A stretch of DNA of 64,000 nt from Dioscorea cayenensis subsp. rotundata (Eukaryota > Streptophyta > Magnoliopsida > Dioscoreales > Dioscoreaceae), in NCBI RefSeq assembly GCF_009730915.1, contig NC_052475.1:29325016-29389015 (forward strand). Direction: 5' to 3'. Positions 30,848 to 48,120 of the stretch are shown here, piece after piece; the stretch's first letter is position 1; every line of letters starts with the position of its first letter. The translations under genes and the position numbers were made by a program. The notes beneath the pieces were generated by a model. The model saw only the letters and a program-made list of their open reading frames with translations, searched no databases and was not told where the DNA came from.

Positions 30848-31803
30848 GGGTGTCAAGGAATATGCAGATACTGTGGTGCACCAGTTACAGTGGTTAATGA
30901 TCTCTTAAAAATTTATTAACTCAATTAGATGTCACATGATGGCTATCAATACGATATACACATTCAGTAAAAAATTTATATTATTTACCAATAGTTTTAT
31001 CATCTATTCGATCTAATATTGAATGCTTCAGCCATACAAAATAAGGACATATATAATTATTGAGCGTAGTTAATTTGTGCACATTTCTGACACATATTTA
31101 TTGTATTTCATGTTTATTATATTTTGTGGGAAAAAAATTATATTTATTTGACAGAGGTTTTGGTTGCATTCATACAATATAATATGGAAATTAATTTTGA
31201 CTTTTCTAAAAATTTGATAGATATTCTAAGTATCTTTATAAGCCCATAAAAAGGTTCAGATTTAGATAAAAATCTCTTAAAAAGACAATATGTAATATAA
31301 TAATACCGAAATTAATGTAGATTTTTCAAAAAAATTGAAACCTTTGGTTAAAGCTGTCCACTGTGTTCAGAAAAGCCCCTCAAAAATATCATATTTAAAA
31401 AAAAAATTTTACATATTCAAATAAACCTCACAAAAAGATCCTCAAACTTTATAAGCGGAATTAACTGCATCCATTGATTATAATATGGAAATCAATCCCG
31501 GTTTTGCTTTAAAAAGTTGAGATTTTTTAGATAAACATATTCATAATGACCCTCTAAAATAACATATTTACCACTATATATATATATATATATTGGAGAA
31601 AAATACTCAATTAAGCTCGCTTTAAAGATCTTTTATATATATATATAATTAGATGATTTTGCAGCTTCCATCGATTATAATCCTGGAAATTAATTAGAAT
31701 GTTTTCTTTCCAAAAATAAAAATAAAAATAAAAATAAAAAAATTATTTTTTTTTTAATTTTGAATAAATATTTTCATAAAAGCCCTCCAGAAAGATGACA
31801 TTT
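30660..31803. repeat. Decayed tandem array upstream of the first Raf-like gene
   Basis: A composite motif recurs at about 30668-30757, 31153-31252, 31300-31395, 31466-31572 and 31660-31803. It consists of GC..CCATTGATTATAATATG with GAAATTAAT, then a T/A-rich stretch, then ATTCATAA..CCCTC.AAAA with AT.ACATTTA. Copies are degenerate and the last ends about 70-100 bp before the likely transcription start. No coding content is seen. Confidence 0.6.
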
Positions 31804-31869
31804 AGAAACAGCAAGGTTTGTGAAGTCTGATGAAGAGGCTGTTTTGACTCTTTGGAGAGGCTTGCGAAG

Positions 31870-32486
31870 GGGATGATGCTTTTCTATTTCCATTTGCTTC
31901 GTTTCCAATCACCGCCATTGCCGCCCCTTCATCCTCTCATGGTGTAGCTTCCAAAGATCGCTCCTTTTTCCCTCTACCATCATTTTCAGTACCATCCTCA
32001 CCTTCTCCTCTTCAGCCACTGCCCGATCTCTGTGATTACTCACCGTCGGAGCCACCCTTTCGCCTCGCTTGGCCTCGTTGAGGTCGAGCTCTACTTGCAC
32101 CTTCGTTTAGGTATAGCTTCATCTTCTCACTTGTGATTTATTTTCATAGATCACTGTTTGTTTATATGTTCTGTCTCCCGTGAGGCATTTTTTTAAAACA
32201 TCTCTGTGTCATTGGGTTTGAGTAGTTTTGTTTTTATATAGTTCTCGCAGGAAAGCTATGATCTTTTTAGTGAATTCATCTGATTTCTCATGCTTATCCC
32301 TTCTTTTTTTTTTTTGTTTATTTTTATGTGAACACGATGAATTTTTTATTGTTGTTATCATGTGTTGAATCTGTACAGTTTGTGAGGACTGTTCTGAAAT
32401 GGTTCGCTGTAGTAATCCTTTGCTGGGGATGTGTTTTTTCTGAAATGAAGATAAATGGATTCGTTTGTGCAATTTAAAGATTGCGG
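31870..32486 (+). promoter_or_regulatory. Leader of the first Raf-like gene with intron and upstream ORFs
   Basis: A C/T-rich leader exon ends near 32109 (TTTAG|GTATAG). An acceptor near 32379 (TGTACAG|TTTGTGAGG) starts the exon that carries the main ATG. The leader exon holds a two-codon ORF ATG-GTG-TAG near 31940. After the intron come ORFs MVRCSNPLLGMCFF (32399-32443), MKINGFVCAI (32445-32477) and a third from 32455 that overlaps the main start. The paralogue has the same arrangement. Confidence 0.65.
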
Positions 32487-38017
<5,531 letters not shown>

Positions 38018-38753
38018 ACTTATACAGATACAGATCTTTTTTAAACGTATTGTATCATTTTGAGTCATTTATGTTTTGATTTGTTTATATGTTCATTGTT
38101 GTATCTCATGAGGTCTGTGTGCTTGAATCAAAAAGTTGCATGTAAAACTCATTGGTTTTTCCAGGTTCTTTTCACTCTTAAATAATAGAGATTATTTCAG
38201 GTTGTCAAAGTGAATGTCAGACTAAAATATTTGTTGGTTAGAATTTTAAGACATTTTTATTGTTTCAAAATGCTGCATGATTACCGGGTGATTAAATTTC
38301 AACTTAAGATATTTATCATATCTTTGAGTGAAGGAAAAAAAAAAATTAATAATATTAAATATAAAACTGACATATCACCAACCAGGTTACCAGACACAAG
38401 GAATTTTGTGAATTTTTTTTTTCTTTTCATTTTCATACATATCCCTATAAATTTTTTATTTACAAATACACACACGTTCTGAATTCCAGATTCTTCTATA
38501 AATATCCTTGCTCACTGCTCACTGCACTCAATTTTTTTTCACTTGCCGGGTCGTTCTCTAATATTTTTATTAGTTTCATTATTAATTTAATAATTTATTA
38601 TTTCATAAATTTATTTTTATTTATTTATCATAAAAGTTGAGATTGCATCCATAAAAATATTAAAAAAAACCCAAAAATAAATCATATTTATAGATTGGAA
38701 ACTAAAATGAAAACACTATCTTGACTAATTTGGAGAGAGAGAGAGAGAGAGAG
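38018..38753. promoter_or_regulatory. Spacer between the tandem Raf-like genes
   Basis: About 0.7 kb of AT-rich sequence with the 3' UTR of copy 1 and the promoter of copy 2. A (GA)n tract at 38732-38753 marks the probable start of the copy 2 leader. It lacks the tandem array found upstream of copy 1. Confidence 0.5.
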
Positions 38754-39386
38754 TCGAAGAAGCTATGATGCTTCTCCACTATCCTTTGGTTCGTTCTCGA
38801 TCACCGCCATTGATGGACCTCGGTCCTCTCATGGCGTAGCTTAGTCGCTCGTTTTTCCTCAGCTCTCTCGTCTCCAGTACCACCGTTACCTCCGCCGCCT
38901 CCCGATCCCTCTGATCAGCCACCGTCGCCCCTATCCTTCCGCCCCTCTGTGGTTCGCGTAGGTCAAGCTTCACTTGCACCTTCGGGGCTTTGATTACTTC
39001 GTTTCATCAGTCAGTTAGGTATGGATTGATCCTTTCAGTGGTTCTCATCGATCTCTTGAATAAGTGTGTATTTGTTGTGTTCTTTGAGGCATTTTTTCAA
39101 ACGCCTCGATTCCATTCGTGGGTTTGAGCACCTTATTTTTTGTTGGGATCTCGCTGGGAAATCATGTTCTCGTGCTTATCTTCATGTTTTTGCTTTGATT
39201 TCTTCCTGAATTTGTATGAAAGTAGGATTTTTTTTTTTTTAATTTTTTTTTATTTTGTTATGTGCTGTATCTCTAGAGTTTGCGAGGATTGTTCTGAAAT
39301 GATTTGGGGTGGTGGTTCTTTGCTGGTGATGTGTTTCTTCTGAAATGAAGATAAATGGATTTGTTTGGGCAATCTGAAGACTATAG
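38754..39386 (+). promoter_or_regulatory. Leader of the second Raf-like gene with intron and upstream ORFs
   Basis: Homologous to the copy 1 leader. The leader exon ends near 39018 (GTTAG|GTATGG) and the next exon begins near 39276 (CTCTAG|AGTTTGCG). It holds ATG-GCG-TAG near 38833, then MIWGGGSLLVMCFF (39299-39343), MKINGFVWAI (39345-39377) and an ORF from 39355 overlapping the main ATG in another frame. Confidence 0.65.
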
Positions 39387-45401
<6,015 letters not shown>

Positions 45402-48120
45402 AGTTATACGGATACTATTATTTTGTGCCATTTTAAGTCACCTATGGGTTGGTTATTATGTGTCCGTTGTATGTGTGCTTGAAACCCCAAGTAAAAAAGG
45501 TTCTGTAAAATGCTCTTATAGAGAGTGTTATATGAAAAATGGTAAAGGGTTAAGATTATTTATGTGAGATGTTTACATGAATATGATAAGTAGTGAATAC
45601 AAAAACTCTTGAAATATGATCCTCTGTTGTTTCTATTAATGCTATGCAGTGTTAGCAGCAAAGTTTGAATATTTGGTTATTAGTGAATAAATGTATTAAC
45701 GGCATTATTATTTTATTTTATTTTATTTTTTGAGAAAATTGTAAAAAAAATTGTGGTTTCACATATTTGAGAAATAGAGATAGGTTTTTTTGTTTAAAGA
45801 TATATGGTTTTTTTTATAAAAAAAATGTTAATGATATTAAAAAATTTTTTTTTCATTTGGCAGCAGTCGGTTCATAAAAAAATTAAAATTTTAAAAAATC
45901 AAATAAAATTATAAGAGAAATCATGGTCATTTTATTTTATGTGATAGATTTTTAAATAAATTGATGATTTTATTCCTATTCTTTTCTTATCAAGTAAAAA
46001 GAGTAAACAAATTTTTTATTTGACTGGATCATGTATCCTCGAAATTGGAAAAAACCTTTATCCCAATTTACTAAATATGAGAAATCACATGGTTTTTTTA
46101 GTGTGTTTATCATGAAATAATTGAATAAATGAATTACATCATACCTTGAATAAATTGGCTAGATCTCATGAATATATTTTAGAGTTAGGTTAATGTATTA
46201 GAATTGATATTGTAGGGTATGGGTTCACATTATGTTTCCCACCTAATTCCTTTTAACTTATTTGCCGCCCCTTTTAATTTGGCCTTCAATTATGCCCTTG
46301 AAAATTGTACCTCACTCTACATTAAGACCTCTCTTTTGCCATCAAATCCTAAAAAAGTAAAAAGGCATCTCATTTCCAAGTTCAACAATAAATATTTATC
46401 ACTAAAAACTTGTGAAATATTCCTTGGTTGTTTTTATCTGTCATAAATTTATAGTTTTTTTTTTTTATCTGTTATTTTTTCTAACATCAAAAAGTATTTA
46501 TTATATTTTTTCAAAATTACTCTAACACTCTATTCAATTTTTTTTTTTGAAATTAAATATAAGAGAGAAATGTGAAGATATAAATTAAAGTTTAAAAAAT
46601 AATAAATTTTTTATAAAATTTTATAAAATAACTAAATTTATTAGTATGTGAGATTTGATTAACCACGACAGATAAAAAAGAACGGAGGAAGTACCAACAA
46701 AAAAAATGAACTACAAATTTATACTTAAGACTTACCAAAGGTTGATTACAAAGCAATCAAGTTTAATATATTATTTTATTTATTTTATTTTTTGGCTTAC
46801 ATGGGGATGTTGGCAAGCATCAAGCAACCTTTTTAACTTGAAAAGGATCCAACCTTCAAACTTATGTTTGAAGTTATAATAATAATCAAGTAAAGATTAT
46901 TGTTTAGATTTTATAATAAAATGGCATTGGATATGAAGTGAAGATGAAGTTTAAACCTATATTAAGCAAAACATTTAATAGGTTTTTTTTTTTTTAAAAA
47001 AAAAACTCTTAGCTCTCTCCCTAAGCATCTTCAACACTACTCTAGGGACTTCAGTGAGATGTTGATGTTTAATAAACTCACGTTTTTTTTTGGGTTGTTA
47101 TTTCTTGTTAAGAGAGTTATACCTTGCTAAAGTTCATTCTTGATTCTTCTAAGACCTCATTAATGAAAATATTCTCCATAATTATTTGTAATAAAAAATT
47201 AATACAAATAAAAAATAAATAAAATAAATATATTTTTTTGACAAAGTCTACCAATAAAAAATAAACAGATATGAAAGTACACCAATTGACTGATCTCCTG
47301 TGAATAATCTCATATAATGCAATCCTGAAAGGGAGAACGGAAGAGTTAACCCATAGTTTCTTAATTTTAAAAAAATAATTTTTAATAAAAAAGGACTGTT
47401 TAGATTTAATAAAATTATTATTTATTTATTTTTCTTATTTTGATTTACTAAAATCAGATTAAACTTGTAAAAATAATAAAATTATATATTTTCAGCAATT
47501 AAAAACCACAAAAAAAATATAAAAACAAAATAGAGAGAGGGGTAAACTCACTGGCGGTGATGGAATCCACTTTCTCGGGGACCAGAATACGAAAGGGACA
47601 AGGCTGCCGACAATTCCATCCTCAGATCTCGGCCGTTGGATCAACGGACAGATGACGTGGCAAACACCCAGCCCATCAACTCCTCTTTGCCGATTTATAA
47701 CACACATTCAACCCCTTTAAACTTTTTTATAATCATAAATTCCTACTAAAATGGCCCAGTAATTCGCGAATAATAACTAGAATTCAACTGCACAATATAT
47801 ATTTCAATTAATCAAAATATCTTGAAAAATATGGCTTTTTTGCAAATACATACACCAAGAAAAAAAAATTTCTCATGATTTCATTTATACAACTATAAAA
47901 TGAAAGGTTAATAACAAGCTTTTACAGGCGTAAATATGAAAAAAAAAACTTCAATAAATAATTTAGCTACTCAATCCACAACTTCAAACAGCAACATGAC
48001 CCGCCGCATGTTCTCGAACGTCGACAACCGTCCGATCTTGATCCAACGGTTAAAACTTGTTCAACGGGTCATTTCCATGTCCTTTTTCCAACGAGTTCCG
48101 TGACCCTCAACAAGACTGTT
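45402..48120. other. AT-rich intergenic region
   Basis: About 2.7 kb with no recognisable gene. A segment near 47240-47310 weakly resembles the dispersed repeat at 1965-2105. The part from about 47570 is less AT-rich and probably belongs to the promoter of the downstream receptor kinase. Confidence 0.5.

Follow-up and report, generated by a model that had tools for sequence, protein, structure and literature searches.

Ahead of the main start codons of two tandem Raf-like kinase genes in the yam Dioscorea cayenensis subsp. rotundata lie several short upstream open reading frames (uORFs), and the locus raises the question of whether these act on the kinases at all and, if so, whether through the peptides that they encode or through the positions of their upstream AUGs (uAUGs). 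The stretch of DNA analysed (the window) comprises 64,000 nucleotides of contig C5 in a 584-Mb assembly. Both genes encode a PB1-domain Raf-like kinase; the main ATG of copy A is found at position 32487, and that of copy B 6900 bases further on, at 39387. Each copy consists of a long first coding exon that carries the PB1 domain, followed by kinase exons, which in copy A extend to about 38017.

32487..35588, forward strand: first coding exon of the main ORF, copy A (PB1 domain = residues 183-264)
39387..42440, forward strand: first coding exon of the main ORF, copy B

The N-terminal PB1 domain scores above the curated cut-off in both copies (PF00564, E 1.4e-18 in A and 3.7e-20 in B). The first kinase exon of A, taken alone, reaches 23.8 bits with PF07714 (cut-off 23.1), and with PF00069 this 50-residue piece falls below the cut-off (23.9 against 31.7); the remaining kinase exons were recognised by eye only. 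The combination of PB1 and kinase domains is taken here to denote a B4 Raf-like MAPKKK, an N-terminal PB1 presumably marking group B4, and the pair is provisionally assigned to the RAF18/20/24 subclade, whose members would group with At1g16270, At1g79570 and At2g35050 in a tree. According to the available text of PMC7069986, in which the term PB1 has no match, these three Arabidopsis genes are of the B4 group, to which RAF18, RAF20 and RAF24 belong, and under osmotic stress the RAF18/20/24 kinases of that plant switch on SnRK2s of subclass I. The two yam copies are not a very recent pair, since they have a Ks of 0.45-0.51 and differ at 85 of 322 fourfold sites (26%).

The 5' leader of copy A is apparently interrupted by an intron with the donor TTTAG|GTATAG and the acceptor GTACAG|TTTGTG. 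A similar intron is predicted at the matching place in copy B, where the acceptor is less clear and reads TAGAG; given this reading, the acceptor may sit 2 bases further upstream. The leader portion of exon 2, 108 bases long, aligns between the copies without a gap, against 43 gap columns in exon 1 and 21 in the intron. From the sequence we infer that transcription and splicing of the leader match this layout, and that the uORFs listed below are translated and repress the kinase.

31873..31947, forward strand: u0 of copy A, 24 codons, in leader exon 1, MMLFYFHLLRFQSPPLPPLHPLMV
32111..32378, forward strand: 5' leader intron of copy A, GT..AG, inferred from sequence
32399..32443, forward strand: u1 of copy A, MVRCSNPLLGMCFF
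32445..32477, forward strand: u2 of copy A, MKINGFVCAI
32455..32658, forward strand: u3 of copy A, 67 codons, +1 frame, overlapping the main start
38765..38839, forward strand: u0 of copy B, 24 codons, MMLLHYPLVRSRSPPLMDLGPLMA
39299..39343, forward strand: u1 of copy B, MIWGGGSLLVMCFF
39345..39377, forward strand: u2 of copy B, MKINGFVWAI
39355..39570, forward strand: u3 of copy B, 71 codons

An earlier note on this DNA had described three uORFs before the main ATG of copy A, and these are present at 32399, 32445 and 32455; the last starts, as the note had said, 32 bases upstream and runs through the main start in another frame. Its statement that the tandem copy keeps every start and stop holds for all three starts and for the stops of u1 and u2, but not for that of u3 (32658 against 39570). 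The ATG-GYG-TAG element that it had read as a minimal ORF is indeed kept in both leader exons, where it reads ATG-GTG-TAG in copy A, but forms the last three codons of the in-frame, 24-codon u0. A single base separates the u1 stop from the u2 ATG in copy A, and 9 bases lie between the end of u2 and the main ATG. In both copies u2 shares the frame of the main ORF, with no frame shift, a point absent from the earlier note, and ends in a common stop at codon 11 (TAA in A, TGA in B). Copy B carries in addition an in-frame TAG at 39384-39386, immediately 5' of its main ATG, so that with the TGA of u2 its main ORF cannot be extended upstream. Around the u1 ATG, position -3 is G in both copies, and position +4 is G in A but A in B. 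The u2 start is flanked by G (-3) and A (+4), that of u3 by T (-3) and G (+4), and the main start by C in A or T in B (-3) and by G (+4).

The peptides were compared between the copies. The u1 peptide is not conserved and differs at 7 of 14 residues, through 10 nucleotide differences (constraint test, P 0.93); in u0, 18 of 75 nucleotides are changed, and with them 11 of 24 residues (P 0.74). The middle peptide does show the single residue difference that had been described, MKINGFVCAI against MKINGFVWAI, and 29 of its 33 bases are the same. Scoring of synonymous against non-synonymous change, which the earlier note had proposed across orthologues and which here covers copies A and B, gives two synonymous differences, one stop-to-stop and one residue change among the four; with four changes and the start and stop kept, one residue change or fewer arises in 9.8% of trials (P 0.098). 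These values do not support the peptide-type uORF that the note had suggested, and start positions, not peptides, carry the conservation signal; the peptides appear mostly unconstrained, with u2 a borderline case. A nascent MKINGFV(C/W)AI that stalls, or senses something, and thereby controls the kinase would find some support in the 9 of 10 residues kept, in the two synonymous and one stop-to-stop changes and in the 4 of 33 bases changed, fewer than expected at the 26% rate of fourfold sites (binomial 0.041), but this comparison involves two sequences only, and a degenerate MKINGF pattern, with one base added, has two matches in the 584-Mb genome, both in copies A and B, against one for the reversed control. 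Such peptide control is considered very unlikely.

Kinase genes are represented among the known plant conserved-peptide uORFs (CPuORFs), namely in HG10, HG16 (WNK5), HG23 (WNK8/10), HG25 (GRIK1/2) and HG27 (CIPK6), out of 27 families (PMC3426882, available text). The yam genes resemble these in that the leader of a gene for a signalling kinase contains short uORFs, whereas the described families are conserved angiosperm peptides and here two tandem copies with mostly unconstrained peptides are compared. The available text of PMC7106846 requires of a CPuORF a start and a stop within the 5' leader, a peptide conserved across at least three orders, a low Ka/Ks and a fusion ratio below 0.3. Start and stop of u0, u1 and u2 both lie inside the leader as predicted from the sequence, and u3 is placed outside this class by its overlap with the main ORF. 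No Raf-like kinase is named among the families in the available text of PMC3426882 ("raf", 0 matches); the main text of the ESUCA study (PMC7106846) has 0 matches for kinase or Raf, and that of PMC9305500 has 0 for kinase, Raf, PB1 and MAPKKK. The absence of Raf from these three main texts also speaks against a peptide-type uORF. No uORF of a B4 Raf-like kinase is named in the titles and abstract openings found, a search beyond whose scope lay most subscription papers and all supplements, so that absence from print is unproven.

The start codons behave differently from the peptides. All seven ATG triplets in the leader of copy A from 31857 (exon 1 and exon 2) are kept in copy B, against 151 of 358 triplets of every kind, ATGs included, and against 2 of 6 ATGs in the leader intron and 1 of 8 in the 600 bases upstream. 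The permutation P for this retention is 0.0017 (three alignment settings give 0.0013-0.0016, and holding the base and CpG class gives 0.0023), in a test that was devised after the feature had been seen, that covers one gene pair, and in which adjoining ATGs (ATGATG) are not independent. The result is similar from B to A (7 of 8 kept; P 0.003-0.004) and for the leader counted from 31780 (8 of 9 in either direction; P 0.00055-0.0009), and of the other A/T/G triplets free of overlap with an ATG, 11 of 20 persist in copy B, against seven of seven (Fisher 0.036). Intron ATGs reach 3 of 6 under one of the three alignment settings (P 0.13). Because the leader ATGs are kept so much more completely than leader triplets in general and intron ATGs, the uORF start positions look selected between the copies. 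Retention of starts beyond chance fits the role in translation that the earlier note had assigned to the uORFs; as for control itself, it remains a prediction.

The same data bear on whether the ATGs could be neutral leftovers, chance triplets from the common ancestor of the tandem pair whose erosion is not yet complete. Some of them agree with such an origin: keeping u1, u2 and the u3 start through 20 differences in 108 bases is marginally unlikely only (P 0.049, or 0.015 at the fourfold-site rate), the ATGs of the exon 2 part, the last 108 bases of the leader, are weak by themselves (P 0.073; exon 1 by itself, P 0.019), and the longest identical run, 24 bases, is not significant (P 0.075). 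Complete retention over the leader from 31857 against two of six in the intron, a result that stands with other alignments and with a fixed base class, argues the other way, and neutral persistence is judged improbable.

The in-frame position of u2 suggests a different origin, as the relic of an ancestral N-terminus. The old start would have stayed, the stop at codon 11 would predate the tandem duplication, and translation would now begin 14 codons downstream, with no regulatory role required. The shared frame and the shared stop in both copies, together with the extra TAG of copy B, agree with this. In Arabidopsis RAF18 the distance between the initial Met and the Arg of R-(N/D)-E-G-L-G is presumably 17 codons, as it is here between the Met of u2 and the Arg of RNEGLG, and the Met position of dicot RAF18 and RAF20 upstream of this motif presumably corresponds to that of u2. 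Against it, the residue likeness of u2 to the dicot N-terminus is slight, and the next nearest paralogue, on contig C1, begins MEKVMPNSSGQRF in the chosen reading, a start that lies close to the current main ATG rather than to u2. A literature search with short strings of the dicot N-terminus and of the leader gave no match. In-frame uORFs at the N-termini of orthologues form the "spurious" class of ESUCA, which discards uORFs that match main-protein N-termini (PMC7106846, available text); u2 resembles such uORF-mORF fusions in being in frame at a place where orthologues may begin. A relic origin is a real possibility, if a doubtful one, and may coexist with a repressive leader as the source of its u2.

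Within the yam genome, the leader DNA of copy A matches only at these two copies; the kinase exon gives 6 matches and the N-terminal protein 36, among which only A and B match from residue 1. In three of the others, the genes on contigs C1, C8 and C3, no MKINGF-like uORF occurs in the 250 bases of unspliced genomic sequence upstream of the chosen start, and aligning the leader of A with that of the C1 paralogue gives a score that 71 of 200 shuffled sequences also reach, no better than expected by chance. Within the same 250 bases the C1 paralogue has 8 upstream ATGs, that on C8 has 2 and that on C3 has 1; judged by sequence, uORF-rich leaders may be common in this PB1-kinase family. No relatives were found in IMG/VR (viral) or prokaryote contigs, as expected for a plant gene, and Rfam gives 0 matches at the gathering score over 31500-46000.

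Pieces of the first coding exon of copy A (32829-33415), about 85-95% identical and nearer to A than to B, occur at 7 of 9 fetched places (C10:12215932, C11:18891301, C2:10952083, C17:12641734, C16:10896900, C14:7556370 and C17:2183784). Identical internal deletions recur in at least four of them, and the seven places have longer repeated DNA around the pieces in common, partly tandem repeats. A mobile element thus seems to have picked up a fragment of the gene and dispersed it. The fragments cover 32829-33415 only and are thus uninformative on the leader.

Taken together, the leader looks like an ordinary, sequence-independent, repressive array of uORFs, and the explanation preferred here, to which we give about an even chance, is that in this B4-type pair it lowers translation of the kinase through the positions of its uAUGs and not through peptides. 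Scanning ribosomes would encounter u0 and then u1, whose stop lies just before the next starts, 1 base from the u2 AUG and 11 from the u3 AUG. Those initiating at u3 would be lost to the kinase, since u3 runs across the main start in another frame. The kinase would be reached by leaky scanning; alternatively, 40S subunits that scan on from the u1 stop would become competent again only beyond u2 and u3, and initiate at 32487. With the three near uORFs so close to the main AUG, however, reinitiation at that site may be inefficient. Points against damping of this kind are the single gene pair, the weak effect over the exon 2 leader taken alone, the A at +4 of u1 in copy B and the lack of an unusual RNA fold (32379-32520, z -0.62; 39 of 200 shuffles fold as well).

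A short uORF followed by an out-of-frame uORF that overlaps the main start is the layout of delayed-reinitiation leaders of the GCN4/ATF4 type, whose output goes up under limiting eIF2 through bypass of the overlapping uORF. The yam leader shares this order of ORFs and differs in its very tight spacing, since the next AUGs follow the u1 stop after 1-11 bases and the main AUG after 43. It might by analogy form a compact bypass switch, in which u1 captures ribosomes and carries them past the u2 and u3 starts, and more kinase is made when stress delays the re-acquisition of initiator tRNA, with u2 perhaps a decapitated old N-terminus that is now part of the switch; this elaboration is distinctly improbable. 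Leaky scanning, reinitiation and delayed reinitiation are reviewed in PMC11062462, according to whose available text most identified uORFs have no peptide conservation across plant species.

The locus illustrates that an in-frame uORF should be labelled a conserved peptide only after comparison with the N-termini of orthologues. A bypass switch, if true, would feed into Raf-SnRK2 signalling under osmotic stress at the level of translation. Should the uAUGs control output, translation would be a further layer of control over B4 Raf-like kinases and the uAUGs could be edited.
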